From positions 94,947 to 158,946 of IMG/VR virus record IMGVR_UViG_3300025810_000004: 64,000 nucleotides of DNA. One strand, given 5' to 3'. A program made the position numbers and the translations under genes. Below the pieces are notes generated by a model, which was not told where the DNA came from, did no database searches, and saw nothing but the letters and a program-made list of their open reading frames with translations. Shown here piece by piece: positions 16,667 to 61,295 of this stretch; position 1 is the stretch's first letter; the number at the start of each line of letters is the position of its first letter. Source of the stretch: a virus.

Positions 16667-17276
16667 CAACTGGTATTCCCACGTCTTCATGGACCCCTCC
16701 GACATAGAGAAATTCTTCTCCTCCGACAGGGGGCTGCACGAGATATATGGGGAGACCCCGGAAGACAAAGAAGAAGTCAACAACGAGCAGCTATCCCAAA
16801 TCAGAAAAGTGCTGCACAGAATCCCCCCGAGGGAAGCCGACTTCGTGGAGTTGTACTACTTCCACGAGGTGAAGCAGGCAGCGATAGCTGAGCTGTTTGG
16901 TGTCAGCCAGCCCACCATCTGCTACAGACTCCAGAGGGCTTCCAAGAGAATCAAGTACCTCATAGAGCTTCCAGAATACGAAGAAAAGAAACTGGCCAAA
17001 TTCCTGAACATGGTCCTGTCCGACCCAGTGGACATAGAGATCATGAGGCTGATGCTATTGACCACCTGCCAGAGCGAAGTCGCAAGGTCCCTCAATGCCT
17101 CGCAGGGCTTCGTCAGGCACAGATTCTACAGGTCCCTGAAGAAGATCAAGGACTATCCGGGTGCAGAATCCAAACTGTACCAGAAGGTGTTCACGCACCT
17201 ATCCCAGAACCTGAACGTTCTGAAGAGTGACGACAAGCTCAAGAAGACCGAGCCCATGGTGTTCGTCCTGGGGTGA
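16659..17276 (+). CDS. sigma-region-4-like protein with two HTH segments
   Basis: 205 aa, overlapping the NusG-like gene by 8 nt. Residues about 50-102 (VLHRIPPREADFVELYYFHEV followed by KQAAIAELFGVSQPTICYRL) are a typical sigma-70 region 4 helix-turn-helix. A second HTH-like unit follows (IEIMRLMLLTTCQSEVARSL, then NASQGFVRHRFYRSLKKIK, about 125-163). No region 2 is seen, so it may act with host polymerase like a small late sigma or coactivator. Candidate reader of the TATAA-type boxes upstream of the rightward genes (inference). Confidence 0.75.
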   Translation: MPSNWYSHVFMDPSDIEKFFSSDRGLHEIYGETPEDKEEVNNEQLSQIRKVLHRIPPREADFVELYYFHEVKQAAIAELFGVSQPTICYRLQRASKRIKYLIELPEYEEKKLAKFLNMVLSDPVDIEIMRLMLLTTCQSEVARSLNASQGFVRHRFYRSLKKIKDYPGAESKLYQKVFTHLSQNLNVLKSDDKLKKTEPMVFVLG

Positions 17277-48174: not shown

Positions 48175-48187
48175 TCAGTATCACTGA
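48175..48187. promoter_or_regulatory. 13-bp palindrome TCAGT-ATC-ACTGA
   Basis: Member of the 5-3-5 palindrome family with a third arm version (TCAGT/ACTGA). It lies between two tRNA-like sequences in non-coding DNA. Confidence 0.5.
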
Positions 48188-48215
48188 GAACTGAAAGGGC
48201 TCCCGCGCAAAATTT

Positions 48216-48306
48216 GGTCTGTGGAGGGAGTCGAACCCACTTTATCCAACGTCGGAATCGAACCGACCTGCCAGCTGCCGCCGACTGCCATTCCAGGCTC
48301 ACAGAT
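48216..48306 (-). tRNA. tRNA-Ser-like sequence (anticodon CGA), aberrant
   Basis: Acceptor halves TCTGTG and CACAGA pair over 6 bp. GTCGG-TTCGATT-CCGAC gives an anticodon arm with CGA, and GTGGG-TTCGACT-CCCTC a T-arm with one mismatch. The D region is about 20 nt too long and could hold an insertion. Read as a damaged or unusual class II tRNA; the assignment is uncertain. Confidence 0.3.
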
Positions 48307-48339
48307 TTCCGAGGGAGGAGAGGAAAAACCTCCCCCCTT

Positions 48340-48376
48340 CACCCCTTTATCCTCATTTGGGGCTTCAATTAATATA
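48340..48376 (-). promoter_or_regulatory. nine-copy leader element, copy 1
   Basis: Read leftward: TATATTAATTGAAGCCCC, then AAATGAGGATAAAGGGGTG. TATTAAT-like box followed by CCCC...GGGG arms. It directs transcription toward the tRNA-like sequences and the 47874 gene, and lies just after the 48439-49182 gene. Confidence 0.75.
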
Positions 48377-48438
48377 CTTTATTTCGAACTTGTATTTCGA
48401 ATTTAACCAAATTGTGCTTTAAGACACCAAAAACGCCA

Positions 48439-49182
48439 CTAAGCGGCGGCATCGCGCTCTGCGTTCAGCGACTCGGCGTAGGCCACGAGGTCAGCTCCGA
48501 GCTTGGTGTCCAGAGCCTTCCACTGGTCGAAGACCCCCAGAACGTGGCAGCAATCCGGACCGTAACCGATCTCGATGCTGGCCGGGACGGAGAGCTTGTG
48601 GCCACAACGGCAGCAGGCACCCTCGTGCCAGACCTCGACCACCTTGGGGAGGTCGGTGCCGAACCGGACCTGGTCCCAGATCCATGCGAACGCTTTGTGG
48701 CGCACGGTGTCGCTGGCCGGAACCTCACCGGGCTTGGCAACTCCGTACTTGTTGCACGCGCCACGGAGGCGGTACTCCTGGTTCGCGGTGGGGCGACCGT
48801 ACTTCTTGACGTTCTCAACCAGCTTCTGGTGGTTGTCGATCCAGTGACCCTTCAGCCCCTCAGCCATCTTGGCTTCGAGGGCAGCAGCCGCGTCACGCCA
48901 CCCGTAGGCGCGGTACTGCCCGTTGGGCTCCACGACCCCGATGCACTTGTAGTGCGACTTGCGGAGGTTGTTGTCTCCGGTGAAGACCCACACCTCAAAC
49001 AGGGCACCCGCGAGGTCGGGTTTGATCGCCTTGTAGGTGGCGCGGTTTCCGGTCTTGATGTTCTTGACGGTGAACATCGCGTTTCCGCCAGTGATGAACT
49101 CCATGATCGCCATGGGATTTTCCAGCAGACGCTGGTGGCGAGAGTTGTTGGCGGTGACTACGGGCTGGGATGCGTTGGCCAT
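48439..49182 (-). CDS. DUF6011-like zinc protein
   Basis: 247 aa; ATG with GGAG upstream. The C-terminus CCRCGHKLSVPASIEIGYGP, then DCCHVLG (about 197-222), matches the CxxCGxxLxxPxSxxxGxGPxC signature of DUF6011, a presumed zinc ribbon common in phages. The N-terminal 120 residues (AMFTVKNIKTGNRATYKA..., LFEVWVFTGDNNLRKSHY) look like a beta domain often paired with it. Own promoter-like element (copy 2) 38 nt upstream. ATC-type codons. Confidence 0.8.
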   Translation of the reverse strand: MANASQPVVTANNSRHQRLLENPMAIMEFITGGNAMFTVKNIKTGNRATYKAIKPDLAGALFEVWVFTGDNNLRKSHYKCIGVVEPNGQYRAYGWRDAAAALEAKMAEGLKGHWIDNHQKLVENVKKYGRPTANQEYRLRGACNKYGVAKPGEVPASDTVRHKAFAWIWDQVRFGTDLPKVVEVWHEGACCRCGHKLSVPASIEIGYGPDCCHVLGVFDQWKALDTKLGADLVAYAESLNAERDAAA

Positions 49183-49220
49183 TGTGATGACTCCTGCTTG
49201 GGTTGTACAGTTTTCTCTCT

Positions 49221-49259
49221 CACCCCTTTATCCTCGTTTAGGGGGCTCGATTAATACCT
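49221..49259 (-). promoter_or_regulatory. nine-copy leader element, copy 2
   Basis: Leftward GGTATTAATCGAGCCCCC, then TAAACGAGGATAAAGGGGTG; ends about 38 nt before the ATG of the DUF6011-like gene. Arms CCCC/GGGG with the loop carrying GAGGATAAA. Confidence 0.8.
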
Positions 49260-49276
49260 ATTATTTTAGGCGAATG

Positions 49277-50134
49277 TCAGACGAGACCTTCGAGGACAGC
49301 CTCGTCGACCTCCACCTCGTCAGTCTGTGCCTTACAAGCAGCGACGCCACCAGCGTTGAGGAGCCAGTTGACGGTCCCCTCTTCGTCGGCGGGTGCCAGC
49401 TTGAAGCTGGTGTAGCGGCCAATCTTCAGCTGGGCACGAATTACCCGCTTGGCCACCTGCAGGGGTGCGCTCTTGGAGCGCGGGATCGGACCGTTCTCGG
49501 CTGCGGTGAGAACCTTCTGCCCGATCAGCAGTCCCTGGAGGTAGACCGTTCCGACGGGAGCAGCCAGCTTCGCGTCGGGGTCGGTGGAACCCTTGTAGAC
49601 GCGAGCACCACGGACCTTGTTGCCGTCCTTGTCGAGCAGAGGCTCGAAGACGTCAGCCGTGGTCGGCTTGGTGTCTCCGTCGATGGTGCGCTGGAGGTCA
49701 GCAACCACCGCGTCCACGGCAGCATCCACGATCTCGCGGGTGACGGGCACCTGACGCATCCCACCGGGGATCTCGGCGTCGAGACGGGCCACGAGGTCGG
49801 CCTTCTTCCCGGAGTCGTCCAGTCCGTTCTCGCGGCACCACTCCTGCAGCTGAGCCAGCTTCGCGGACTTCTTCCAGACGCGCTCCCATCCCATCAGGCC
49901 ACGGTCAGCGATCGCCTGCTTGTCGTCGGCGGTCATGGCCTCGGCCTCCGCCTTGGAGACGGTGACCAGCCGCATGTACTTGAACCCGGTGACCACGAGT
50001 GCATGCACGAGGTCGTCCCCGTATCGCTTCCCTCCGACGACGCGTCCGACCTTGGGGTAAATGAGTCCGGTGAAGCCCTTGTGGGCAGCGGCGAGGGTCT
50101 CAACGAGGTGGGGGAGGTTGGCGGAAACGGTCAT
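49277..50134 (-). CDS. SAP-domain protein
   Basis: 285 aa; ATG with CCGGAG upstream. A SAP motif (AKLAQLQEWCRENGLDDSGK, then KADLVARL, about 91-118) predicts binding to DNA. The rest (FTGLIYPKVGRVVGGKRYGD, GARVYKGSTDPDAKLAAPVG TVYLQGLLIGQKVL) is a beta-type domain of unknown role. Preceded by leader element copy 3. Confidence 0.75.
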   Translation of the reverse strand: MTVSANLPHLVETLAAAHKGFTGLIYPKVGRVVGGKRYGDDLVHALVVTGFKYMRLVTVSKAEAEAMTADDKQAIADRGLMGWERVWKKSAKLAQLQEWCRENGLDDSGKKADLVARLDAEIPGGMRQVPVTREIVDAAVDAVVADLQRTIDGDTKPTTADVFEPLLDKDGNKVRGARVYKGSTDPDAKLAAPVGTVYLQGLLIGQKVLTAAENGPIPRSKSAPLQVAKRVIRAQLKIGRYTSFKLAPADEEGTVNWLLNAGGVAACKAQTDEVEVDEAVLEGLV

Positions 50135-50184
50135 GGAAAACTCCGGTGTGTGGGAATAACGGATGCAAACGCGTCGAAGGTGGA

Positions 50185-50228
50185 ACCCCTCGGGTTTTTA
50201 TCTTTATTATAGACTTTGATTAATATAT
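50185..50228 (-). promoter_or_regulatory. nine-copy leader element, copy 3 (divergent)
   Basis: Leftward ATATTAATCAAAGTCTATAA, then TAAAGATAAAAACCCGAGGG: keeps TATTAATC and AAGATAAA but the stem is altered. An (AT)n run (50221-50241) precedes it. Located 51 nt upstream of the SAP gene. Confidence 0.6.
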
Positions 50229-50296
50229 ATATATATATATATACGCACGGTATGTCCAAGAAGGACATACCGTGCGCTGTTGGGGGATCTAATCGT

Positions 50297-50935
50297 TTAT
50301 CGGCCCCAGATTTCGTCCTCGGTGGGCGACTCACCGCATTCCGCGTACAGAGCCTTCAAAACCTCTTCGGCCTCTTCAACTCCGTAGCCGTCCTCGTTCA
50401 TTTCCACACCCCGGATTTCTGCCAAGATGTGTTCACGTGGACGCTGTGCAGCCCCCAATTTCGCGACCTGAACCACCTGCGTCCGACCCTGGCCGAACAC
50501 CAGCATGGCTGGTGGGTTGGAATTGATGGCTTCGCGGATTACGACGCCCGTGACGCTGGTCACCTTCTTTTCCTTCCAGGACCAACCCTTGTAGGAAACC
50601 CCGGTGCCCATGCCCAACGACAGTTCCTGCTCGCAGTCGCTCTCTTCGGTCAGGTTCTGTGCTTCAAGCTCCACCACGATTTGGATGTTCACCCGCCCTT
50701 GGAGAGGGGAGGCACCAACCACCCTTGCGGTTTCATCCAACTCGATTCCCTGCAGCACCGCTTCCATCAAAGCACTGGACTTCTTGATGAAGTGCGAGAC
50801 GCCGTGGCGACCCGGTTCCCTCCGTTCCACCAATCCATCGGCAACAACGTCCGGGTCAGCAAGGGCGTGGTATACGTGAACCTCCACGCCCTTGCTTGGT
50901 TCTTCCCAGAAAGTGTGGGAGATTACAGCGAACAT
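50297..50935 (-). CDS. hypothetical protein coupled to the vWA gene
   Basis: 212 aa starting within the stop of the vWA gene (TGATG). Beta/alpha character (VEVHVYHALADPDVVADGLV, VNIQIVVELEAQNLTEESDC), acidic C-terminus. No motif. Coupling suggests it acts with the CobT-like vWA protein. Confidence 0.65.
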   Translation of the reverse strand: MFAVISHTFWEEPSKGVEVHVYHALADPDVVADGLVERREPGRHGVSHFIKKSSALMEAVLQGIELDETARVVGASPLQGRVNIQIVVELEAQNLTEESDCEQELSLGMGTGVSYKGWSWKEKKVTSVTGVVIREAINSNPPAMLVFGQGRTQVVQVAKLGAAQRPREHILAEIRGVEMNEDGYGVEEAEEVLKALYAECGESPTEDEIWGR

Positions 50936-52413
50936 CAGTACCCCCGACGGGCATGGCCCGTGGTGCCGTCCAACTGGGCACGGCCACCACCAGTGGGAGG
51001 GAAGACCAGCGACTCAACCTTGTCGACCAAGGCGCGAGGCAGATCCTCGACATTTTCAACGACCACGTGGTCGGGGAAAAGACCCTCAACTCCGCGACAG
51101 CCCCAGCCGATGCCGACGCCCACGACCTTGATCCCAGCCTCTTCGGCCAGCCGGATCTGACGCTGCACCACCTTGGGGGAGTTGGGGACACCGTCCGTCA
51201 CTACCAGAATCAGACGGTGCTTCTCTTCCCGCGTGTTGATCTGTTCAAGGGCGAACTGAACCCCATCGCTGAGCGGAGTACCACCAGTGGCGCTGTACTT
51301 CCAGAAGCGGTCCGCAACGTCCTTGGTCTTCTCCTGCCAGTCCTTGAAGATGATGTAGTCCACGCCACTGGTCCGGTGGAAGTCTCCTTCTTTCACCAGA
51401 GCCCTGGCCCCGTAGGGGTTGGCCGCGTATTCCCAGTTGTCTCTGACGCCACAGCACAGGATGGGGGAGCCAAGGTCGCAGAAGGCACTGGCGACAGCGT
51501 ACATGCCCTTTGCTGCCATCTTGTAGAGTTTTCTGTCTCCACGACCTCCGTCCATCGAACCCGACATATCACCAACAACGGCGATCGCCAGACTCTCGGC
51601 AGGCTGCTTCTTGATCCGAGCCCACGGACGGCTGGGGGTCTTGCCTCCCTTCATTTCGATGAAGGAAGCGACCAGACGCCGATCCGAGAGGTGCGAACCA
51701 CGACGGAGACCGTGGCGAACCTCGGGCTGGCGGCTCGAAAGGAACTTGTTCCGGAAGTAACTGCGGAGAGCAGCCACGGTCGTCAGAAGCTCCTTGTCTG
51801 CCTTCCTGGTCTTCCGCTTGAAGGAGTCCCGCTGGTGATCAGCAATCTCCGGGGTTACCACCCGGTCACAGCCCGTGTCCCAAGGACGCCAGATCTGCTC
51901 GTCGGTGCGAACGTCCTCAGCTTCCTTGTCGAAGCCCTGAGTCAGAGCCTCCAGAGGGTCGAGAAGTCCGGTGTCTCCCTCGAAGTCTTCGAGTTCCATG
52001 CCCGGACCTTCGTCCTCGGCGTTCCCACCAGCCTTGTTGCCGCCTTCTTCGCCAGCACCCTCACCGTCGGCGTCGTCACCGTCATCGGCGTCGTCACCCT
52101 CGGCACTCTCTCCCTCACCCTCACCCTCGGCACCCTCACCGTCTTGGGGCTCACCGTCATCGGCGTCACCCTCGGCTTCTTCGCCGTCAGCGTCACCGTC
52201 GGTATCCTCACCACCCTCACCTTCGGTGGGGTCGTCAGCGCCCTCTTCCTCGGTGTCGTCGGCTTCGTCGCCAGCACCGTCGGCACCCTCGGTGTCGCCG
52301 TCTGCGGGCTCACCCTCGGCACCATCAGTGTCGTCAGCAGGTCGGGCCACCGGACGGAGCTGATCGGACGTTCCATCGAACAGACCGACCAGTCGCATCA
52401 TCATGGTTTTCAT
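50935..52413 (-). CDS. CobT-like vWA-domain protein
   Basis: 492 aa from ATG 52413 (GGAGG 9 nt upstream); the upstream open frame is rejected because it overlaps the promoter element and the neighbour gene. Residues about 30-140 are an extremely acidic Asp/Glu/Gly linker, as in CobT. The C-terminal vWA domain has an intact MIDAS: VVGDMSGSMDGG (DxSxS), ATGGTPLSDGVQFA (Thr) and LVVTDGVPNS (Asp). vWA proteins of this type pair with MoxR/CobS AAA+ ATPases. Here the partner is encoded at 55368-56522 and the usual N-terminal part is separate (52469-53554). Confidence 0.85.
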   Translation of the reverse strand: MKTMMMRLVGLFDGTSDQLRPVARPADDTDGAEGEPADGDTEGADGAGDEADDTEEEGADDPTEGEGGEDTDGDADGEEAEGDADDGEPQDGEGAEGEGEGESAEGDDADDGDDADGEGAGEEGGNKAGGNAEDEGPGMELEDFEGDTGLLDPLEALTQGFDKEAEDVRTDEQIWRPWDTGCDRVVTPEIADHQRDSFKRKTRKADKELLTTVAALRSYFRNKFLSSRQPEVRHGLRRGSHLSDRRLVASFIEMKGGKTPSRPWARIKKQPAESLAIAVVGDMSGSMDGGRGDRKLYKMAAKGMYAVASAFCDLGSPILCCGVRDNWEYAANPYGARALVKEGDFHRTSGVDYIIFKDWQEKTKDVADRFWKYSATGGTPLSDGVQFALEQINTREEKHRLILVVTDGVPNSPKVVQRQIRLAEEAGIKVVGVGIGWGCRGVEGLFPDHVVVENVEDLPRALVDKVESLVFPPTGGGRAQLDGTTGHARRGY

Positions 52414-52425
52414 AACTTTTGCCTC

Positions 52426-52461
52426 CACCCCTTTATCCCTCTTTCGGAGTTTGATTAATAC
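52426..52461 (-). promoter_or_regulatory. nine-copy leader element, copy 4
   Basis: Leftward GGGTATTAATCAAACTCCGA, then AAGAGGGATAAAGGGGTGG; about 13 nt before the vWA ATG. Arm ACTCC pairs with GGGGT using one wobble pair. Confidence 0.8.
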
Positions 52462-52468
52462 CCACCCT

Positions 52469-53554
52469 TCACTCCTCAACCAGCGACCACTGGAGGTCCT
52501 GGACCCCGGTTTCGGGGTGGGGGACTCCAGCAACCACGACCTCGACCATCTGCCCGGTGGCCTTGATCTCGGCACGGTCACCGACCTTCCACATGTGACC
52601 CTTGGGAGGTGGGTTCGACTTCTTGTCGTCGTTGGCGTCTTCCTCGGTGGGCTCGCCTTCACCCTCACCCGGCTCACCCTCACCTTCGGTGGGAGGGGGA
52701 GGCTGCTGGGACTTGACCAGACCGAACAGGTAAGCCACGACTTCCATCGCAAGCCACCAGTGTCCCAAGTCGTCTTCGCGAGTCATGTTGATCGCACGGT
52801 CCAGAAAGGGACGGAGTTCACCACCCGCAACCAGCTGGAAATGTTCGGGGGACGAAGCCGCGTAGCGGATCACCGCGTTCCGCTGGGTCGGGGTCTCGTA
52901 CCCCAAACCAAGGTCGCGGAAGGTTCCCGCAATCACCTGCATGGGTCCAATCATGCTGGCCCGGTGTTCGTTGACAATCAGCCCCATCCCCTCCTGCTCC
53001 AGGATGAAGTCCTGGAGGTCGGGCATGACCGAACCAGCACCGGGGTGATCCTCGCACCCACGACGCTCAATCCGAATGTCCTCAATCAGGTTCCCCCAGT
53101 GGAGGACCATTCCGACCAGCCGAGGCCAGTTCTTGTCCGGGTCGGGAATCAGGTTCCACCGATCCTTCAGCGGACCCCAGACCTCTTCGAAGGTGAGGTC
53201 ACGAGTGCAGCTGTACTTGTCGTGCCAGCTCTCGTGGTAGACCCCAGCGATGCGGACACGCTGTGGCTTCCGGGTCTTGGCCTCCGAATCGGCAGGACCC
53301 CAAGCGGCAACGTTCAGCTGCTTATGAGGTTCCGGAACACGGGTTGCGTTGGCGGCTGCGATCGCAGTGCGGACCATCCACTCGTCCAGTCCGTTTCCGA
53401 GCTTGATCCCGTTGGCGATCTTGTCGAAGAGGATTCGAGCGGTCCAGCGGTTGACGTTGTAGAACATCTTCCCGGTGGCTCGGACGGGAGGGCAAGCCTC
53501 TCCGAGGATGGACTCACCAGCAGCCTGCTGGGCCTCGCGCATGGCGTTGATCAC
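52469..53554 (-). CDS. stand-alone HExxH domain of CobT/vWA-type metallopeptidase
   Basis: 361 aa from GTG 53554 (GGAG 7 nt upstream). VYHESWHDKYS gives a zinc motif H107-E108-xx-H111, and GNLIEDIRIERRG (about 154-166) the acidic third ligand typical of the metallopeptidase-like domain linked to vWA proteins. The tail (290-320) is Pro/Glu-rich, followed by a KGHMWKVGDRAEIKATG beta segment. In many relatives this domain and the vWA domain are one polypeptide; here they are neighbouring genes. Proteolysis is possible because the motif is intact, but the substrate is unknown. Confidence 0.75.
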   Translation of the reverse strand: MINAMREAQQAAGESILGEACPPVRATGKMFYNVNRWTARILFDKIANGIKLGNGLDEWMVRTAIAAANATRVPEPHKQLNVAAWGPADSEAKTRKPQRVRIAGVYHESWHDKYSCTRDLTFEEVWGPLKDRWNLIPDPDKNWPRLVGMVLHWGNLIEDIRIERRGCEDHPGAGSVMPDLQDFILEQEGMGLIVNEHRASMIGPMQVIAGTFRDLGLGYETPTQRNAVIRYAASSPEHFQLVAGGELRPFLDRAINMTREDDLGHWWLAMEVVAYLFGLVKSQQPPPPTEGEGEPGEGEGEPTEEDANDDKKSNPPPKGHMWKVGDRAEIKATGQMVEVVVAGVPHPETGVQDLQWSLVEE

Positions 53555-53607
53555 TTCGCTTCTCCTTGTCTCTGTGAGAGATCCAGATTTGGTGTGTTTT
53601 TCCCTTT

Positions 53608-53643
53608 CACCCCTTTATCCTCATTCGGGGTTTCAATTAATAC
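53608..53643 (-). promoter_or_regulatory. nine-copy leader element, copy 5
   Basis: Leftward GGTATTAATTGAAACCCCGA, then ATGAGGATAAAGGGGTG; 53 nt before the HExxH gene. Its TTAATTGA contains the stop codon of the upstream gene (53633). Confidence 0.8.
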
Positions 53644-54121
53644 CTCCCCTGACGAGGTCTTGGAACTTGGGTCCAAGGAACTGCAGGGAGTAGACCCCCT
53701 TCTGGTCGAACACCTCGACCTTTGCGGACACAAGCACAGCCCATTCGTTTTCGATGGCCACCACGAAGTCTCTCCCCACGTAGGACACAGGGGTTACGCG
53801 CCCAGGCAGCGAGCGAGGGTCTTCCTTTAGCTTCCCTTGGTCCCAGAGAGCTTTCACGGCCCCAAGGTCCATACCGGACTCCCAAAGCCAAAGGAAGCCC
53901 TCGGAGAGGTCTTCGATGGCCACCAGCGTTCCAGTACCTGCGGGGGTGTAATCCTGGAACTCTCGCTCTTCGATCGTGTATTCGTCTCCTACCACCAAAC
54001 CACGGTCCAAATACGACAAAAGCACCTCCCCCAACTCAGCGTCGGAGGAGGTCCAGTCCATGGGTCCCATGCTGGGGTCGGAGACCGGGTGGTTGCCCAC
54101 CACAATCCGACGCAGTTTCAT
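53633..54121 (-). CDS. hypothetical protein
   Basis: 162 aa; beta-rich (VGDEYTIEEREFQDYTPAGT, RVTPVSYVGRDFVVAIENEW). Starts 4 nt inside the end of the upstream gene and ends inside leader element 5. No motif recognised. Confidence 0.7.
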   Translation of the reverse strand: MKLRRIVVGNHPVSDPSMGPMDWTSSDAELGEVLLSYLDRGLVVGDEYTIEEREFQDYTPAGTGTLVAIEDLSEGFLWLWESGMDLGAVKALWDQGKLKEDPRSLPGRVTPVSYVGRDFVVAIENEWAVLVSAKVEVFDQKGVYSLQFLGPKFQDLVRGGIN

Positions 54122-54498
54122 TCGTCTTCTCCCTGGTCCCAGCGGAACCCGATACGTGCCTTGTATTCCTTGCGTTCGATGTAAGCCATCAGGATTGATA
54201 CCTGACGTGGCTCCAGGAGTTCAAGAACGGTGGATGTGTCGCGGATTTCCGCGTTGGTGGTGACGCGGATGGTCTCCAGGAATCGGTCTCCCAATTCCTG
54301 GGCCAGACGGTCGAGGTCGACCCCCTTGCGCAGCACCCACTTCGGGTCCTGGTGGGTCACCAGGATTCTCCCGGAGTCACAGGTCAGAACGCCCGTGCTC
54401 CGGTTTTCTTCGCGAATCTTCTCCTTGATGGATTCCAGTTCCTTGGTCATGGAGTCGATGGCCTTGGCCAGGGCAATTGCCCGATCGAGGTCAGCCAC
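54118..54498 (-). CDS. hypothetical helical protein
   Basis: 126 aa from GTG 54498 (GAGG 5 nt upstream), overlapping the upstream stop. An N-terminal coiled-coil (LDRAIALAKAIDSMTKELES, then IKEKIREENR) is followed by a compact domain (WVLRKGVDLDRLAQELGDRF). Middle gene of the 55264-53633 operon. Unknown. Confidence 0.65.
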   Translation of the reverse strand: MADLDRAIALAKAIDSMTKELESIKEKIREENRSTGVLTCDSGRILVTHQDPKWVLRKGVDLDRLAQELGDRFLETIRVTTNAEIRDTSTVLELLEPRQVSILMAYIERKEYKARIGFRWDQGEDE

Positions 54499-54499
54499 A

Positions 54500-55264
54500 T
54501 CAACCTCGCTCAGCGTGGCAGCCCACGTGGTAGGCACCCTCGGCCTCGACCCGAACGAACTGGTCACCGGGCTCGATGAAGCCCCGGCACTCCCGGCAGA
54601 ACAGCGGGAATTCAGCCCAATGGAGCTGCACATCACCACGCTCAGCAGCCGCAAGGAGGGCAACCTCGTCGGCCTCCTGCTCGGCAACAACCGGAGCTTC
54701 GACCTCGACTGCGACCCATGCCGCGAGCCGTGCAGCAGCCTCGGCGTAGCGGACTGCCTTTGCCTCACCGCAGAACCCAGCCAGAGGGCAACCACGGCAG
54801 GTGCGCGAACGCAGGTTCTGGGCACCAAAGCATTTGGTCTGCTCGATGACCCGGAGCCGGAGGTTCTCGTCGGCTTCCATGATGGGGTGGTTGGAGAGGG
54901 CAGCGTGTCGCACTGCCTTGACCGCCTTGGAGACCTCAACCGCTCCAGCCGCCTCAGCGACCGTCTGAGTGGCGACTGCCTGCTCAGGCACCTTCAAGGT
55001 GAAGGAACCCCGCTTGGGGCTGAAGACCTTTCCCTCGTCGCGGAGCTTGGAGAGGGCGAACGACATATCCCGTCGCGCCTTGGGGTAGTCCTTGCCGCGA
55101 GCCTTGATGTGGCCCCAGTGGTCCCAGCCGGGGAATCCCTCGGTGGCGACGATTGCGGCATCGACGTCCGGGGTTCGGACCATTCCGTCCGCAGCGATGT
55201 TCTGGAGAACAGCGAGGACGACAGGCTTCCAAGCGGTGACGTCGGAGTTGGCGGGGAAGTTCAT
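54500..55264 (-). CDS. winged-helix protein with two Cys clusters
   Basis: 254 aa from ATG 55264 (GGAG 10 nt upstream). Residues about 8-90 (WKPVVLAVLQNIAADGMVRT, WDHWGHIKARGKDYPKARRD, LSKLRDEGKVFSPKRGSFTL) resemble an Mrr-N-type winged helix. TKCFGAQNLRSRTCRGCPLAGFC (about 140-162) and FCRECRGFIEPGDQF...YHVGCH near the end are separate zinc-like clusters, the latter like PARP/LIM-type fingers. Probable nucleic-acid binding. Preceded by leader element copy 6. Confidence 0.75.
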   Translation of the reverse strand: MNFPANSDVTAWKPVVLAVLQNIAADGMVRTPDVDAAIVATEGFPGWDHWGHIKARGKDYPKARRDMSFALSKLRDEGKVFSPKRGSFTLKVPEQAVATQTVAEAAGAVEVSKAVKAVRHAALSNHPIMEADENLRLRVIEQTKCFGAQNLRSRTCRGCPLAGFCGEAKAVRYAEAAARLAAWVAVEVEAPVVAEQEADEVALLAAAERGDVQLHWAEFPLFCRECRGFIEPGDQFVRVEAEGAYHVGCHAERG

Positions 55265-55315
55265 TGTTGTTTGTCTCCTTGTCTCCCTGTGGGAGATCGG
55301 GTGATTTGGGGCTCT

Positions 55316-55349
55316 CACCCCTTTATCCTTCTTTGGGGCTCTGATTAAT
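55316..55349 (-). promoter_or_regulatory. nine-copy leader element, copy 6
   Basis: Leftward CCATTAATCAGAGCCCCAAA, then GAAGGATAAAGGGGTG; 51 nt before the winged-helix gene. GCCCC/GGGG(T) arms. Confidence 0.8.
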
Positions 55350-55367
55350 GGGTCAGTGTTCGACCGA

Positions 55368-56522
55368 TCAGAACCCGACCTCTGCGTCGGCGTCGTTGAG
55401 GACACCGCACTTGATGGCCTCGTTGATCGCTGCCTCGGCAATCAGGATCTGGTCGCCGTCCAGACGCTCCGTCCAAGCCTCCATGGCCTCGGCCAGAATC
55501 TTGTCGGCAGTCCGATTCGGGAAGTCCTCACGGACGTTGCGAGCGCACTTCATGATTGCCTGAACGCCACGCATCGACAGACCGCTGCTGCAGTAGAGCT
55601 TGCGCTCGACCAGCATGGCGCGGATCCGCTCAACGCACTTGCCCAGAGTGTCGAAGATCTCCGGCATGGCCTCGTTCATTCCGGGGAACATGGCCCGGTA
55701 GATGACCACCTCTTCCTCCCACGCCATGTGGTGGAAGCGGATGAACTCACCCATCCGGTCGAGCAGCGAACCGTCGATCGGACGGCTGCTCATACCGTCA
55801 GCACCGTTGCCGTTGGAGTTGGCGGTGAAGACGAACTGCGTTCCCGGCAAGATCTTGTGGGCCTTGCCGTAGGGGTCGATGACCCGCTTCGAGGTCGTGT
55901 CGAGGACGAGCCGGAACTCTTCCAACTGGTCTTCGTCGCCACGGTCGACGTCGGAGAACAGAATCAGGAAGGGACGACGGATTCCATCGGCTCCCACGTA
56001 GCCCTCGGTGAGAGCCTTCCAGAGGGCACCGAACTCCCAGCCCGTCCCCTCGCTGTCCAGCTTCTGCTTGTAGAACCAACCCTTGACGTCGGTTCCACGG
56101 GTGAAGCAGAACGCCAAGGACGGCTTGCGCTGGGCGTAGCAGAACTGGTGAGGAAGAGCGTCCTTGCCGGTACCGGGACCGCCGTAGAGGAAGACGGGCT
56201 CACCACCCTTCAGCGCACGGTTGGCGCGTTCGTGGGCACGAGCCGCCTTGCCCTTCTTGGGCAGGAAGTAGTGGGGAATGCCGGGCAGGCACTCTTCCTC
56301 GGGGACGTGAGCGTCGATCTTGTAGGTGTACCGACCAAACTGGAACGTCAGGTTGTTGAGGTCGGGAGCCTTTCGCTTCACCTTGACCTCAGCCTCCAGT
56401 TCAGGGGAGACGAGTTCCGCCTCTTTGAAGTCGGCTGGGTCGAGTCCGTGCACCTCCTCGATGTGAGGGGTGAGGAAGTGGCCAACGTGGTTGCAGCCTT
56501 CGACGGGGCAGGTGATTGCCAT
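55368..56522 (-). CDS. CobS/MoxR-like AAA+ ATPase with N-terminal C2H2 finger
   Basis: 384 aa from ATG 56522 (GGAG upstream). An N-terminal finger CPVEGCNHVGHFLTPHIEEVHG (C5, C10, H20, H25) precedes the AAA+ core: P-loop LYGGPGTGKD (112-121), Walker B region FLILFSDVDRGDEDQLEEF, sensor-1 QFVFTANSNGN and a C-terminal lid. The residue after the P-loop Lys is Asp instead of Ser/Thr, which is unusual for Mg-ATP binding. Expected to work with the HExxH and vWA proteins downstream as a three-part CobS/CobT-like remodelling machine. Leader element copy 7 upstream. Confidence 0.85.
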   Translation of the reverse strand: MAITCPVEGCNHVGHFLTPHIEEVHGLDPADFKEAELVSPELEAEVKVKRKAPDLNNLTFQFGRYTYKIDAHVPEEECLPGIPHYFLPKKGKAARAHERANRALKGGEPVFLYGGPGTGKDALPHQFCYAQRKPSLAFCFTRGTDVKGWFYKQKLDSEGTGWEFGALWKALTEGYVGADGIRRPFLILFSDVDRGDEDQLEEFRLVLDTTSKRVIDPYGKAHKILPGTQFVFTANSNGNGADGMSSRPIDGSLLDRMGEFIRFHHMAWEEEVVIYRAMFPGMNEAMPEIFDTLGKCVERIRAMLVERKLYCSSGLSMRGVQAIMKCARNVREDFPNRTADKILAEAMEAWTERLDGDQILIAEAAINEAIKCGVLNDADAEVGF

Positions 56523-56603
56523 GTGTGTTGTCTCCTTGTCTCTCTGTGAGAGATCCGGTGAGTGTGAATTTACAGGGTTAGAGAGTCGCACTGACTCCCC
56601 CTC

Positions 56604-56640
56604 CACCCCTTTATCCCTCTTTCGGAGTTTGATTAATATA
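56604..56640 (-). promoter_or_regulatory. nine-copy leader element, copy 7
   Basis: Leftward TATATTAATCAAACTCCGAA, then AGAGGGATAAAGGGGTGG; 81 nt before the AAA+ ATG. Almost identical to copy 4, the vWA leader, so the two partners may be co-regulated. Confidence 0.8.
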
Positions 56641-56657
56641 TCCCTCAGTTCTACCGA

Positions 56658-56954
56658 TTAGAAGGGCATATCGTCATCATCCCAGGTTTCTTCCTGGAGG
56701 GTGGGGGGCTGCTGGTACCTGACGTCGGCGTCCACGATGGCCTTCAGCAGTGCGAGGTAGTTGCGGTCGTTTTCCCAGAATTCGTCGGGGACGAGGATAC
56801 CCATAGCATCCCGCAGCTGGATCTCCTCGACCTCTGGTTCCTCAGGTGGGTCCCAATACGAGCCGGGGTAGCCGTCGTGGTACTCGACGGTTCCGGTCAG
56901 GAGCCCCAACCCCTCAACAACGAGACCAGACTCAGCCGTGACTTCGATCTTCAC
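56658..56954 (-). CDS. hypothetical acidic protein
   Basis: 98 aa from GTG 56954 (GGAGG about 7 nt upstream). Acidic and beta-rich (VKIEVTAESGLVVEGLGLLT), with a DDDDMPF tail like those of phage single-strand DNA-binding or clamp-interacting proteins; that comparison is weak. Ends just before leader element 7. Confidence 0.6.
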   Translation of the reverse strand: MKIEVTAESGLVVEGLGLLTGTVEYHDGYPGSYWDPPEEPEVEEIQLRDAMGILVPDEFWENDRNYLALLKAIVDADVRYQQPPTLQEETWDDDDMPF

Positions 56955-57073
56955 TGCGCACCTCCAGTTTGATAAATGCCGATAAACGGAATTGCTTTTT
57001 CGGCAGTTGTTTCGAACTTGTATTCGAATTCTAATTCGAACGCCCCAGAAGGGCATCATGCGACTGACAACGT

Positions 57074-57436
57074 TTATCGTTTATCAGCCGACCCGGCGAG
57101 GGACCACACGACCTTGTGGTCCTGGTCGCGGTCGGTGACCTCGGTGCAGTAGCCAGCCTCAGTCCACCAGCGGCACTTGCGACACCGGATGGCGGCGTCG
57201 ATGCTCCAGTAGCTCTCGCCACAAGAGCACTCGTAGCGGTACTCGGCGTAGAGAGCCTCCCAGCGCGCGTTGTCGGCGGCGATGGCGGCATCCTCGGCCT
57301 CCTGGCTGTACTCGGTGACCGTGCCGTCGCGGAGGTCCACGCAGCTCACCTTGCAGCACCGGGCGGCGTAGCGGGCGGCCCGGTACTCGGCCCCACAGGC
57401 GTTGCAGCGGTGGGGATGGTCGTTCTGGATGGACAC
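57074..57436 (-). CDS. small protein with two Cys clusters
   Basis: 120 aa from GTG 57436 (GGAG 8 nt upstream). RCNACGAEYRAARYAARCCKVSC and YECSCGESYWSIDAAIRCRKC are two zinc-ribbon-like halves linked by a helix. Probably nucleic-acid or protein binding. Leader element copy 8 lies 80 nt upstream. Confidence 0.7.
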   Translation of the reverse strand: MSIQNDHPHRCNACGAEYRAARYAARCCKVSCVDLRDGTVTEYSQEAEDAAIAADNARWEALYAEYRYECSCGESYWSIDAAIRCRKCRWWTEAGYCTEVTDRDQDHKVVWSLAGSADKR

Positions 57437-57515
57437 GGTAAGGACTCCTTCCTCGCACCTTGCGAGGAATCGGGGTACGAGAAGAAAAAACAAGAACACG
57501 AATGTGTCCCCTCTC

Positions 57516-57550
57516 ACTCCTTTATCCCCTTTTAAAAGTCCGATTAATAC
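57516..57550 (-). promoter_or_regulatory. nine-copy leader element, copy 8
   Basis: Leftward GGTATTAATCGGACTTTTAA, then AAGGGGATAAAGGAGTG. The arms differ from other copies but still pair (ACTTT with GGAGT), i.e. compensatory changes, supporting an RNA stem. Precedes the 57436 gene. Confidence 0.8.
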
Positions 57551-57553
57551 CCC

Positions 57554-57839
57554 TCGATACCATCGAATAAAACTGACTTCACACACCCCGAAACCGCATT
57601 AACACCTGTTGGACTATATGCCCATATGTCTGTGAGGCCCATCAGACCGTCGCACCCCAAAAGAGCCAGCGATGCCAGATGTCCTCGGATTGCCTTCCGT
57701 GCGCTGTCAGTATTACTCGATATTATCGAAAGGTGGTTTTCTCCCACGAGGGGGTATTTCTCGGAGGTATACCCCCTTCTTTCAGCACCGCTGGATGACT
57801 CCCCGAATCGGTGACACCGACGATGTTCGGTGTTACCGA
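57554..57839. promoter_or_regulatory. four 13-bp 5-3-5 palindromes
   Basis: TCGAT-ACC-ATCGA (57554-57566), TCGAT-ATT-ATCGA (57717-57729), TCGGT-GAC-ACCGA (57808-57820) and TCGGT-GTT-ACCGA (57827-57839). The last contains the stop codon of the frameshifted ParB-like frame. The stretch 57551-57832 shows no convincing gene on either strand beyond a stop-free leftward frame (57544-57918), which is not clearly coding. Confidence 0.6.
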
Positions 57840-58260
57840 CGATCGACCCGGCGTCCGACGATTGCGGGGATGCTACGGGCGGAGCCAACCACCAACCCGG
57901 CAGACCTGTGCCACCCATCCCAGATGCCCTCTACAGCACCCTTAGAGTCTTCAATGACGACTATGGGGTCTATGGTCCCTTTTTTAGTTTCTCCATGTAT
58001 CCGGACCTTCCCAATTCTTCGTCGAATTCAACCTCTTGGGCGTACCACTTTTCCCAGCTACGCCGCCCTCCCGGCATAGCGCCAATCAGCTTCCGCTCTG
58101 GGTACGCAGGCTCATATCTCCAACGAAGTTTACGGGGGTCAACGTCAGGGTCATTGACCCCCGTAAACTTCGGCTTCGTCCCACATCCAACGATGCGGCA
58201 GATCGTCACCTCCCCAGATGCTCGGCCCCTTGACACCCTCGTTGGAATAGCGTTCGGCAA
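57833..58260 (-). CDS. ParB-N-like protein encoded across a -1 slippery site
   Basis: The leftward zero frame (58260 to stop at 57970) includes KLRWRYEPAYPERKLIGAMP and WEKWYAQEVEFDEELGRSGY, ending MEKLKKGP. At 57985-57979 it reads CTA AAA AAG, so the heptamer is A AAA AAG. A -1 shift continues GTIDPIVVIEDSKGAVEGIW, then DGWHRSAGLVVGSARSIPAI VG, to a stop at 57833. The DPIVV...DGWHR...IPAIVG pattern is the core of ParB-N/Srx-like domains, so the shifted frame is the meaningful one. A GGAG lies 5-6 nt upstream of the heptamer. Either programmed frameshifting or a homopolymer indel. The N-terminus is uncertain. Confidence 0.55.
58124..58172. repeat. 19-bp perfect inverted repeat, 11-nt loop
   Basis: CGAAGTTTACGGGGGTCAA (58124-58142) and its exact complement (58154-58172). 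It overlaps the stop codon of the 49-aa gene (58151) and the N-terminal part of the ParB-like frame. Very stable if transcribed. It could terminate the upstream gene, stimulate recoding, or be a scar of an inverted duplication. Confidence 0.75.
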
Positions 58261-58300
58261 CTCGTGCAGCTGAGGGTGGAAGTTCTGGTCTGTAAGGCAT
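58151..58300 (-). CDS. 49-aa hypothetical protein
   Basis: ATG 58300 with GGGAG 8 nt upstream. Product MPYRPELPPSAARVAERYSN, then EGVKGPSIWGGDDLPHRWMW; the stop lies in the loop of the 19-bp inverted repeat. Two 5-3-5 palindromes (58313-58325 and 58333-58345) lie immediately upstream. Confidence 0.55.
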   Translation of the reverse strand: MPYRPELPPSAARVAERYSNEGVKGPSIWGGDDLPHRWMWDEAEVYGGQ

Positions 58301-58312
58301 GTGTGTTCTCCC

Positions 58313-58345
58313 TCGATGCTATCGAGTTCTACTCGGTATCACCGA
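58313..58345. promoter_or_regulatory. paired 13-bp 5-3-5 palindromes before the 58300 gene
   Basis: TCGAT-GCT-ATCGA (58313-58325) and TCGGT-ATC-ACCGA (58333-58345), 7 nt apart, ending 13 nt before the ATG of the 49-aa gene and covering the end of the 58592 gene. Paired placement next to a start codon suggests an operator or a translational hairpin. Confidence 0.6.
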
Positions 58346-58592
58346 TAAAGGAGTTACCCGGAGTCGTGGATGCTGCCCCGTGGACTGATACGGCTTCTGT
58401 CACGACCGTGTTTCCCTCGCGGGCAACAAAGACGCGGACTTCCTCGGTCTCAATGTTCTGGAGCAAGTCTCCTCGGACGACGACCACACGGTCAGGGCGT
58501 GGACGGACAATTCCGAAGAACACGTCCACCGACCGAAAGCCGAACCGCTCAGGACTTGTCACACTGGCCATTCGAGAAGTACGAATCATCAT
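58329..58592 (-). CDS. hypothetical protein
   Basis: 87 aa from ATG 58592 or 58589 (GAGG upstream). Beta-rich: FGFRSVDVFFGIVRPRPDRV, VVVRGDLLQNIETEEVRVFV. No motif. The 3' end overlaps a 5-3-5 palindrome. Confidence 0.6.
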   Translation of the reverse strand: MMIRTSRMASVTSPERFGFRSVDVFFGIVRPRPDRVVVVRGDLLQNIETEEVRVFVAREGNTVVTEAVSVHGAASTTPGNSFIGDTE

Positions 58593-58633
58593 GTCCTCTT
58601 CACTACTATATTTATGACCTAAAAAGTACCTAA

Positions 58634-59113
58634 CTAAAGCAGAGGCCCCAACACACGAGCCACGCGGGAGAACCCCTCCTTCGCGGCGTCCGGGGGTCGC
58701 TCCGTGATGTAGCGGTGCATCTTGTCGATTGCCTCGTCCGGAACTCGACGGTCAGCGGGACGCGTAGCGTTGCGCTCCTTGCAGACGTGCTTCGGGGTGT
58801 CGAGCCAGACACACTCAACCGGACACCCGGTGTAGGCTGCCCACACCATACGGGAAACTCGTGCCCGCTTCCAATCCGTGTCGAAACAGGCGTCGAAGTA
58901 GAGCACACCGTGCTCCCGGTTCTGGCGCAACCAAGTGCTCTTGCCAGAACCGGGAGCACCCATGAGGATGACCACCTTCTTGGGCTCGGGACACCAGCGG
59001 AGGTAGTCCTCCAGGGCAGCCCACGTGCGCTGCCACGCGGCCTTTGCCCGGCGCGGGGTCCAGTGGTACCGACCCTGGAGGTCGTAGAGGTGATTGTCGG
59101 GAGAGAAGATCAT
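58634..59113 (-). CDS. P-loop kinase (polynucleotide kinase/zeta-like)
   Basis: 159 aa from ATG 59113 (GAGG 6 nt upstream). Walker A ILMGAPGSGKSTWLR (about 55-69), then LYFDACFDTDWKRARVSRMV and VECVWLDTPKHVCKERNATR, with the Arg-rich lid RNATRPADRRVPDEAI. This is the layout of small nucleotide or polynucleotide 5'-kinases. The preceding N-terminus RYHWTPRRAKAAWQRTWAAL is typical of phage members. Substrate not determined. Confidence 0.8.
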   Translation of the reverse strand: MIFSPDNHLYDLQGRYHWTPRRAKAAWQRTWAALEDYLRWCPEPKKVVILMGAPGSGKSTWLRQNREHGVLYFDACFDTDWKRARVSRMVWAAYTGCPVECVWLDTPKHVCKERNATRPADRRVPDEAIDKMHRYITERPPDAAKEGFSRVARVLGPLL

Positions 59114-59153
59114 TGTGTTCCTCGTGTTTCCAATCCCTTGTGTATCCACTCCA

Positions 59154-59342
59154 TCAGAACCTCCTCCAGGGTTGGGGGGCACCCTTACGGACACCTTCAC
59201 GTCGAGCGTCGTCTTGGACGTTCTGGATAAGCCGCCAAAGAGCCCGCCTCTCCTGCTCGTTGAGTTTGTCGAGCATCGGGATCAGCGTTGCTCGGTCGCA
59301 GCGCTCTCGATGCAGCAAGGCGGTCAAGTGTTGCTTGATCAC
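59154..59342 (-). CDS. small helical protein
   Basis: 62 aa from GTG 59342 (GGAG 6 nt upstream). IKQHLTALLHRERCDRATLI, then PMLDKLNEQERRALWRLIQN: two or three amphipathic helices and a basic end. Unknown. Member of the 61150-58300 leftward operon. Confidence 0.6.
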   Translation of the reverse strand: MIKQHLTALLHRERCDRATLIPMLDKLNEQERRALWRLIQNVQDDARREGVRKGAPQPWRRF

Positions 59343-59352
59343 GTCCGTCTCC

Positions 59353-59634
59353 TTAGTTGTTGGTCCAGCAGGCTTCTGCGCAGACTTCGTTGCCCCCGCC
59401 GATGATCTTCCCTCGCTTCTCGCGAAGTTTGCTCTTGAACTTGGGTGCCCCGCACTTGTTGCAGGAGACTGGTCGGTTGCTCGCAACCCACACCTCCCGC
59501 ATCCGGGTCACCATGCGCTCAGGGATCTCTTCGGTCTGACCGACCCGGAAGACGCGAGCCTGGGCCTTCACGATCCCCCGCTCTTGCCCTTCACGGTTGG
59601 TGTAGACCCCGCAGACGCGAATCGCGTCCTTCAT
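59353..59634 (-). CDS. small zinc-ribbon protein
   Basis: 93 aa from ATG 59634 (GGGAG upstream). N-terminal beta part (IRVCGVYTNREGQERGIVKA), C-terminal SCNKCGAPKFKSKL...NEVCAEACW with a CxxC...CxxxC arrangement. Starts inside the 3' end of the previous gene. Confidence 0.65.
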   Translation of the reverse strand: MKDAIRVCGVYTNREGQERGIVKAQARVFRVGQTEEIPERMVTRMREVWVASNRPVSCNKCGAPKFKSKLREKRGKIIGGGNEVCAEACWTNN

Positions 59635-59746
59635 TGGCTGTCTCCCAGCTCGAATAGTCGAGCTTGTTGTTGATGATCTCTTCCGCCTCAAGGCGGCCCT
59701 TGACCTTCTCCGTCTTGGACCACTTTCCGCCTCTCCAGTCCTCCAT
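59591..59746 (-). CDS. 51-aa hypothetical protein
   Basis: ATG 59746 to TGA 59591. Product MEDWRGGKWSKTEKVKGRLE, then AEEIINNKLDYSSWETANEG. It overlaps the next gene start by 44 nt. Ribosome site weak. The amino-acid pattern is coding-like in its first 35 residues. Confidence 0.5.
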   Translation of the reverse strand: MEDWRGGKWSKTEKVKGRLEAEEIINNKLDYSSWETANEGRDSRLRGLHQP

Positions 59747-59757
59747 GTGTGCGTTCG

Positions 59758-60039
59758 TCAAGCCTGGCCCCGTTTCCTCAGCCGGCGGATCGCCTCGTCT
59801 TGGTCTGCCCCTTTCAACGCCTCGATGCAGTCGAGGGTCGGGGCTCCGGTCTCTCGTCTGACCAGCTTGACCTCGTCCGGGTCAACCGGTCGCTGACGTC
59901 GCATCAGGAGCTTGTCCAGGCTGTGCATGAAGCCGTCCAGGTCGCCCTTGATCGACAGGCCGTTGACGTCCCTGACCTCGGCGACGAAGGCGTCGTACCA
60001 GGCCAGCGTGTCCTTCAGCTCTTGCTCCAGTTTGTTCAT
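59758..60039 (-). CDS. hypothetical helical protein
   Basis: 93 aa; ATG 60039 overlaps the upstream stop; GGGAGG 9 nt upstream. Product MNKLEQELKDTLAWYDAFVA..., PTLDCIEALKGADQDEAIRR LRKRG. Helical throughout. Unknown. Confidence 0.65.
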   Translation of the reverse strand: MNKLEQELKDTLAWYDAFVAEVRDVNGLSIKGDLDGFMHSLDKLLMRRQRPVDPDEVKLVRRETGAPTLDCIEALKGADQDEAIRRLRKRGQA

Positions 60040-60413
60040 CACGACGCACCTCCCGACCACCGCCCGAGTGCTTCGGCAGCGGCGATGCAGGCGGGTCCGA
60101 GGGTTTCGTGCCACGAGATACGATCTCCGTGGTCCACCTGCCATGGATGCCGGCGATTCTGCGCGTGAGCCGCGCGCACGCGCCATGCGTCATCCCCCAG
60201 CAGCGCCAGCAGACACCCAGCGGTCGCGGGGTCGTCGGGGTCGGGGACCGACTTGTTGTACATCCACATGGACTCCTCGGTGTAGGAGTCGAAACGCGGG
60301 TTTTCGATCCACTCATTGCACTCGAACACCTGCGGCAGCATCCCCGGCATCCACCGCCAACCCGGCAGCGACACAGCAAGGCGGCCCCACTCCTCAGTAG
60401 TTCTCTCAGTCAT
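60039..60413 (-). CDS. hypothetical protein, Trp-rich
   Basis: 124 aa from ATG 60413, overlapping the upstream stop by 4 nt. LAVSLPGWRWMPGMLPQVFE and WRVRAAHAQNRRHPWQVDHG, with a C-terminal SWHETLGPACIAAAEALGRW: a compact Trp-rich type found in many phage genomes, with no known activity. Confidence 0.65.
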   Translation of the reverse strand: MTERTTEEWGRLAVSLPGWRWMPGMLPQVFECNEWIENPRFDSYTEESMWMYNKSVPDPDDPATAGCLLALLGDDAWRVRAAHAQNRRHPWQVDHGDRISWHETLGPACIAAAEALGRWSGGAS

Positions 60414-61150
60414 CGGTCACTCTCCTTGTCGAAGACGATTCCGAACTGAGGGCTAATCATCTTGTCGACGACGATGCCCTGTTCCTCCAAAGTGTGCTCG
60501 GAGGCAGTCCCGTAGAAGGTCATCCCCGGAGCCTTGACGGCCACAGCGGAGAATCCCTTCTTGTACCCGATGTAGAAACCGATGTCCACATCAGTGGTGG
60601 GAACCGACTCTGGATAGTTGTCGGGGTCCCACTCGAAGTGGGTGGCCTCGCGAAATTCGGCCAGCTTGTGGGAAGCGAATTCCAGCACAGACGCCTTCGG
60701 GTCTTCCACCCGCTCGACGGAGTCAGCCCAGCTGTTGAAGGCCAACACGTGCCGGAACGCCAGAACCATCCGTTCTTCTGCGGATTCCTCGGTGTACCCG
60801 TGCTCGTTTTCGTGCGAAAACGCCGCCAGCACCAGCCAAGCCACCTCCGCAGCGTGGTGGGGCTCGTAGTGGGCCAATTCGCCATTCCAACCCAGCTCCT
60901 CACCGGATTCGAAGATTCCGGGTCCCATCTTGTGGGCTCCCTCGATGGCGACCATGACCTCGTGGGGGGTAAGCCCCACGAACTTCGCCAGAAGTCGGAC
61001 GCCGTTCTGGGCCATCTTGGCGATGAACAAGGGGTCGGCTCCTTGCAAGAACATGCGGGAGAGCATGGTTGCGGAACCGGGGTCGGCTCCCCCGACGAGG
61101 GGGGAGACTTCCTCAGTGCAGCGCTTCTGGTCGTTGGTGGGCTGGGTCAC
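60410..61150 (-). CDS. hypothetical protein, first gene of operon after leader element 9
   Basis: 246 aa. GLTPHEVMVAIEGAHKMGPG, AAEVAWLVLAAFSHENEHGY and a C-terminal beta region (DIGFYIGYKKGFSAVAVKAP). No motif identified. ATG with GGAGG upstream. Confidence 0.7.
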   Translation of the reverse strand: MTQPTNDQKRCTEEVSPLVGGADPGSATMLSRMFLQGADPLFIAKMAQNGVRLLAKFVGLTPHEVMVAIEGAHKMGPGIFESGEELGWNGELAHYEPHHAAEVAWLVLAAFSHENEHGYTEESAEERMVLAFRHVLAFNSWADSVERVEDPKASVLEFASHKLAEFREATHFEWDPDNYPESVPTTDVDIGFYIGYKKGFSAVAVKAPGMTFYGTASEHTLEEQGIVVDKMISPQFGIVFDKESDR

Positions 61151-61191
61151 GGGACCTCCTGTTCAGCTTCTTAGTGTTTTGGTTTTTCTTT

Positions 61192-61228
61192 CGCCCCTTT
61201 ATACTTTTTTTTGGGGCTCGATTAATAC
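61192..61228 (-). promoter_or_regulatory. nine-copy leader element, copy 9
   Basis: Leftward AGTATTAATCGAGCCCCAAA, then AAAAAGTATAAAGGGGCG. Arms GCCCC/GGGGC pair perfectly, with a base change matched on both sides relative to other copies. 41 nt before the 61150 gene. Confidence 0.8.
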
Positions 61229-61295
61229 TGGTTTTTACTTTTAAGACGCGAGGAAAGCCACTTTGCGGACAGTTCCTGTTCAAAGAGGATTTCAA

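Follow-up and report, generated by a model that had tools for sequence, protein, structure and literature searches.

Repeated elements, probably two-box promoters, in a tailed phage and their different counterparts in related phages

There are nine copies of a short element on the minus strand of the window analysed here, which comprises 64,000 nucleotides (bases 94,947-158,946) of a 158,946-base virus record from IMG/VR, labelled G000. Their identification as two-box promoters is well supported, and it is likely that their specificity is directed by the phage. The best overall explanation, in which we place considerable confidence, is that they are phage-specific promoters with sigma-70 geometry that would drive a leftward, non-structural gene block. 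The predicted architecture consists of an upstream TATTAA box, a spacer of 17 or 18 base pairs, a (G/T)ATAAA box and a G-rich discriminator, followed by a purine that would be the transcription start. In related phages, the promoter sequence is replaced lineage by lineage while its position and spacing are kept.

The nine copies are listed below, with distances measured from the end of the downstream box to the start codon.

48340..48374, minus strand: copy 1, TATTAA-17-GATAAA, heading a non-coding tRNA-like stretch
49221..49256, minus strand: copy 2, TATTAA-18-GATAAA, 44 nucleotides before ATG 49182 (DUF6011 protein)
50191..50225, minus strand: copy 3, TATTAA-17-GATAAA, lacking the stem discussed below, 62 nucleotides before ATG 50134 (SAP-domain protein)
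52426..52460, minus strand: copy 4, TATTAA-17-GATAAA, 18 nucleotides before ATG 52413 (VWA protein)
53608..53642, minus strand: copy 5, TATTAA-17-GATAAA, 59 nucleotides before GTG 53554; its upstream box overlaps the 3' end of the preceding open reading frame (ORF)
55316..55350, minus strand: copy 6, CATTAA-17-GATAAA, 57 nucleotides before ATG 55264
56604..56638, minus strand: copy 7, TATTAA-17-GATAAA, 87 nucleotides before ATG 56522 (AAA_5 ATPase)
57515..57549, minus strand: copy 8, TATTAA-17-GATAAA, 84 nucleotides before GTG 57436
61192..61227, minus strand: copy 9, TATTAA-18-TATAAA, 47 nucleotides before GTG 61150

When one mismatch is allowed, the window contains nine matches to TATTAATCRA, where 1.4 would be expected, and none of the shuffled sequences had as many. 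Eight of these are elements and the ninth (57711, plus strand) is a stray match, while copy 6 (CATTAATCAG) is recovered only at two mismatches. Throughout the record TATTAAT occurs eight times, always inside an element. A preliminary description had listed nine minus-strand copies carrying TATTAATCRA, CCCC and GGGGTG, each in front of a leftward gene. All nine are real, although copy 6 reads CATTAAT and copy 3 retains only TATTAATCAA, the 17-base-pair spacer and GATAAA, with neither the CCCC arm nor GGGGTG. Eight copies precede a same-strand start codon located 18-87 nucleotides beyond the downstream box, whereas copy 1 precedes the tRNA-like stretch. The loop GAGGATAAA, which had been described as conserved, is exact only in copies 1, 2 and 5. 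The columns that are invariant among the nine copies and one further copy from another virus contig are instead ATTAAT, two A residues of the spacer, ATAAA and a final G. Since ATTAAT and ATAAA do not vary and the positions upstream of ATTAAT do, the sequence information sits in the boxes.

The spacer between the boxes is 17 base pairs long in seven copies and 18 in two, and a purine lies six to seven nucleotides past the downstream box, after a G-rich stretch. Even in copy 4, which has the closest start codon, there is room for a short leader with a Shine-Dalgarno sequence. The host sigma-A boxes, TTGACA-17-TATAAT, are not matched by the TATTAA and GATAAA of the elements, and the three sigma-70-like sites present in the entire record (one mismatch allowed per box) do not coincide with any of them. 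A repeated motif oriented with the genes, boxes unlike those of host sigma-A and a fixed spacing are among the features by which phage-specific promoters are recognised. The earlier proposal of a dedicated promoter is supported by this architecture, and also by the relatives, since almost all of those whose upstream DNA could be read carry an equivalent with fixed spacing before the orthologous gene.

The exact element is rare elsewhere. A scan of IMG/VR gave four matches, only one of which is convincing (a single copy at L013:4442-4476 in the 25 kb contig G001), and there is one isolated match, in G026, among 50 related contigs. The idea that the element mimics a host sequence was rejected, as 84,980 bacterial and archaeal genomes yielded 20 scattered matches, which is about the number estimated to occur by chance.

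The non-coding stretch that follows copy 1 (window 48050-48310, minus strand) includes three T-loop-like motifs, GGTTCGATTCC, GGGTTCGACTCC and GGTTCGAATCC. No tRNA was found in this stretch by ARAGORN or Rfam.

The window has a G+C content of 57%, and the record encodes a terminase, a portal protein, a clamp loader and a baseplate protein, which identifies its source as a tailed phage. Among GenBank phages, the top terminase match is LR745208.1, a 485-kb uncultured phage, at 54% identity. No close relative was found in a phage collection, or in IMG/VR by a peptide-pattern search with the DUF6011 and AAA proteins. The portal protein retrieved 67 related loci, and with the AAA protein the corresponding gene neighbourhood could be located in 15 related contigs.

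At least nine related phages, and probably eleven, have their own, different two-box element in this same gene neighbourhood. A pairwise repeat search of the orthologous AAA neighbourhood revealed that relatives have repeats of their own, and an element particular to the lineage lies upstream of the AAA ATPase gene in G002, G004, G006, G008, G011, G012, G018, G028, G033, G034 and G043. The sets in G018, G043 and G006 are smaller, and the remaining repeats are as follows.

G004: GGTTCAAC...CCGTATA
G002: GGTTGGAGC...CCGTAYCT
G012: GGTTGY...CCGTATA
G011: AACGTAA...TCGTATA
G028: TTATCCCAA...CTTATTAG
G008: GGGTTCC...CCGTA
G034: ACTTGCAA...AGTGTTTA
G033: TTGCAA...AGTGTTAT

Most copies in the relatives are followed by a Shine-Dalgarno start, and where copies occur on both strands they follow the direction of the genes. 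The length of the gap was left free in the scan, yet each lineage shows one spacing (23 copies in G004, 25 in G012, 18 in G028, 14 in G011 and 7 in G002), although a few of the near-consensus copies are weak matches, most of them in G011 or close to either end of G004. In the contigs that were scanned widely, the copies form several clusters, with about 23 distributed over 297 kb in G004 and about 25 over 289 kb in G012. When the downstream boxes are aligned, an upstream hexamer is located about 17 base pairs away in every lineage. The upstream/downstream hexamer pairs are TATTAA/GATAAA, GTTGGA/TACCTA, GTTCAA/TATAGG, GTTCCC/TAGAGA, CTAACG/TATAGG, GTTGCA/TATANN, TTATCC/TATTAG and TTGCAA/TGTTTA. 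In G038, where the preceding gene occupies the upstream DNA, no element was seen, and the contigs retrieved for G003, G005 and G051 gave no clear one. Although phage sigma-dependent promoters are a known kind, their turnover from lineage to lineage appears to be new, and we found no description of such turnover at orthologous genes, or of the candidate sigma family considered below, in the open-licence literature.

In the model that follows from the preliminary description, TATTAAT would be a -10-like box and the CCCC-loop-GGGG segment a transcribed 5' hairpin, possibly a translational operator bound by protein or RNA. A stem of 4-5 base pairs with a loop of 13-15 nucleotides can indeed form in eight of the nine copies, and copies 8 and 9 change both strands compatibly. 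However, the arms correspond to the spacer and discriminator of the two-box geometry, copy 3 is stemless, and the relatives' elements show no conserved pairing at this position. If TATTAAT were the -10 box, transcription would begin within the C tract, so that the 5' arm would be lost, and no conserved box lies upstream of TATTAAT that could act as its -35. With a start just after the G run, as we predict, most of the stem would not be transcribed. Folds of single copies range from -2.6 to -9.5 kcal/mol, with z-scores from +0.2 to -2.6. Pairing that persists despite changes in the arms had been put forward as covariation, but the covariation is weak. When arms are exchanged among the copies (copy 3 left out, best register for each), own arms give 40 of 40 pairs and swapped arms a mean of 38.9 (P = 0.21). 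In fixed columns, two pairs show one double change each, a count equalled by 73 of 500 shuffles. Some other fixed-column measures beat most shuffles and look high in nominal terms (13-18 of 500), an effect that comes mostly from the loss of both arms in copy 3. Rfam returned no family at E <= 1 for window positions 47000-64000, and we found no evidence of a protein-binding translational operator. Thus, a structured 5' leader built on the CCCC/GGGG stem is not supported, a grade that stops short of disproof because nine copies give low power, and we regard the operator model as very unlikely.

Three other explanations were considered. The elements could be early promoters for the primary sigma factor of the host that have merely diverged, perhaps with a MotA-like phage activator at the upstream box. 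Many downstream boxes begin with T/A (TATAGG, TATTAG, TAAGGA), which, like the 17-base-pair spacing, fits sigma-70 geometry, and the upstream boxes of G012, G033 and G034 (TTGCA-) are near TTGACA. However, pairs such as TATTAA/GATAAA, GTTGGA/TACCTA and TTATCC/TATTAG bear little resemblance to TTGACA/TATAAT, the boxes are conserved far more strictly than those of usual sigma-70 promoters, and the scarcity of sigma-70-like sites in the record also makes this explanation unlikely, if the least so of the alternatives. Promoters for an RNA polymerase encoded by the phage, whether T7-like, of the N4 virion type with DNA hairpins, or multisubunit, seem highly improbable. It is true that GATAAAGGGGTGA loosely resembles T7/T3-type start regions and that the arms could fold into a hairpin in the DNA like those of N4 early promoters (PMC4496689). 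Yet two boxes 17 or 18 base pairs apart, the long loops and the stemless copy fit poorly, the ORFs contain no polymerase motif, and neither RNA_pol_Rpb2_6 (PF00562) nor RNA_pol (PF00940) was matched in G000 or ten related contigs, the latter being a weak negative as control genomes were silent too. A 3554-residue protein considered as an N4-like virion polymerase was rejected, with no family and no motif found in it. Finally, there is scarcely any likelihood that the repeats are operators for a repressor or activator, comparable to stoperators, and not promoters. They are intergenic and lineage-specific like homotypic immunity sites, but their strict orientation with the downstream gene, the two asymmetric boxes at promoter spacing and the consistent position upstream of Shine-Dalgarno starts favour phage-specific promoters.

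The preliminary description was nevertheless correct that a structured leader exists, in the form of a hairpin other than the CCCC/GGGG stem. Downstream of the promoters, a hairpin with a stem of 5-9 base pairs ends 0-8 nucleotides before the Shine-Dalgarno sequence. It is found in four G000 leaders.

53569..53581, minus strand: TCTCT-CAC-AGAGA, then CAAGGAGA (copy 5 transcript)
55282..55296, minus strand: TCTCCC-ACA-GGGAGA, then CAAGGAGA (copy 6 transcript)
56539..56553, minus strand: TCTCTC-ACA-GAGAGA, then CAAGGAGA (copy 7 transcript)
57449..57469, minus strand: TTCCTCGCA-AGG-TGCGAGGAA, with GGAG immediately after it (copy 8 transcript)

When all Shine-Dalgarno starts were counted and only Watson-Crick stems accepted, the hairpin was present in 4 of 9 promoter leaders and 9 of 207 other starts in G000 (Fisher P = 9e-4), in 13 of 20 against 29 of 422 in G004 (P = 4e-10), and in 5 of 6 against 13 of 181 in G002 (P = 3e-5). 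The rate at starts without a promoter is near that of shuffled leaders, 4%. The stems of G004 differ and still pair (GCCTC/GAGGC, GCCCC/GGGGC, GCCCG/CGGGC, GCTCC/GGAGC and CCTGC/GCAGG), as do GCCGC/GCGGC in G002 and TCTCCC/GGGAGA and TCTCTC/GAGAGA in G000. Since the search demanded Watson-Crick stems, it is the association with promoters, and not the pairing itself, that constitutes the evidence. The hairpin probably aids translation or mRNA stability. A second type of hairpin occurs right after the predicted start in 6 of 7 leaders of G002 and 11 of 23 of G004 (L106 and L105 leaders), where it is strong and perhaps protects the 5' end of the transcript. In G000 this hairpin is not clearly above background (4 of 9 against 0.25).

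If the elements are phage-specific two-box promoters, they would most likely be read by the host RNA polymerase together with a specificity factor directed by the phage. We infer this reader, as well as the timing of expression, from sequence. A search of the record found a single intact sigma-like protein, which is a possible transcription factor.

16659..17276, plus strand: sigma-70 region-4-like protein of 205 residues

It probably contains a second helix-turn-helix besides region 4, and orthologs are present in most relatives. G011 and G012 encode standard full sigma-70 factors. The leading candidate for the specificity factor is a divergent family resembling sigma-H, which is represented in 17 of 35 related records (loci L226-L242, for example G004:C1:107571-108488, minus strand) and by a remnant in G000. 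The family falls below Pfam cut-offs, and a profile built from it aligns with both conserved regions of the sigma-H structure 3mzy (E = 3.9e-8). Across eight lineages, mean identity is 58% in the region-2-like part and 24% in the region-4 helix-turn-helix, which is the profile expected of a reader of changing upstream boxes. It is therefore plausible that this divergent sigma reads the boxes. A broader proposal, to which we give slightly less than an even chance, is that this clade of large phages carries an undescribed divergent sigma factor whose core-binding region stays fixed while its DNA-reading region changes fast, and that its promoter code has been rewritten in each lineage at orthologous genes, with position and the 17-base-pair geometry kept. 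This would give each phage private transcription, unshared with related co-infecting phages.

Several observations weigh against this interpretation of the elements and their reader. The 205-residue protein has no region 2, which leaves the record with no complete sigma factor, and its recognition helices hardly change across lineages with unlike boxes, which is why it was rejected as the specificity factor. The divergent sigma is represented in G000 only by a 41-residue region-4 remnant (record positions 70,568-70,690, plus strand), for which a relic, a split sigma or a recombination product are candidate explanations. However, the record may be a fragment (relatives reach 436 kb), in which case the missing sequence could contain a complete sigma. 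Across eight lineages, a Mantel test gives no significant relation between the similarity of the boxes and that of the sigma proteins (rho 0.16, P = 0.22). In addition, the elements of G006 and G043 are each based on 3-4 copies, the borders of the hexamers, unlike the constant distances, were partly chosen by eye, and G011 and G012, which are richer in A+T, yielded no leader hairpins.

The 41-residue sigma piece, which is located outside the window (G000:C1:70568-70690), directly follows an ORF of 1151 residues. Also outside the window, an adenylosuccinate-synthetase-like protein is encoded at G000:C1:60876-61955 (L005:1176-2255, plus strand), in which GSEGKG replaces the usual GDEGKG. One protein of the record matches the PHROG for 2-amino-adenylosuccinate synthetase (PurZ), and an ORF resembling IMP dehydrogenase is present at 63412-64464 of the record. 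The DNA of this phage might carry 2-aminoadenine, and this would be relevant to the melting of promoters too. No homolog of the adenylosuccinate-synthetase-like protein was found in the DNA fetched for the relatives. Within the window, a tRNA-like gene at 25177-25250 (minus strand), with a two-base anticodon call and no assignment, adjoins tRNA-Leu and tRNA-Ser.

With another element at the same place in almost every relative whose upstream DNA could be read, these phages offer a good natural system for studying changes in the code by which a phage has its genes read. If our interpretation is correct, about a dozen promoter alphabets within one phage clade would form a natural series on the joint change of a factor and its many sites, and the candidate sigmas with their promoters would provide laboratories with sigma/promoter pairs that work independently of one another. 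The hairpins near the Shine-Dalgarno sequence would add to the same genes a second level of leader design that can be tested.

The elements resemble the early promoters of the N4 virion RNA polymerase in being repeated phage promoters with an inverted repeat. Unlike those promoters, which need a DNA hairpin and the virion polymerase (PMC4496689), they have loops of 13-15 nucleotides and one stemless copy, and no such polymerase was found, a weak negative given the silent control. AR9 and phiKZ-type jumbo phages (PMC5312081, PMC7598289) are likewise large phages with their own promoter classes, but these promoters serve multisubunit phage RNA polymerases, for which no gene was detected here.

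Phage-encoded sigma-factor promoter systems include those of SPO1 gp28 and gp33/gp34. Others are known from phiEco32 and phage 7-11, and promoters of this kind are typically well conserved but low in copy number (PMC4331800). The elements are like the promoters of SPO1, phiEco32 and 7-11 in that they are few, strongly conserved, oriented with the genes and unlike host sigma-A sites, and the phages are alike in encoding sigma-like proteins with no RNA polymerase of their own found. They differ from these known systems in their sequence, their full two-box architecture and a different, divergent sigma family, and also because the box sequence changes by lineage at orthologous genes.

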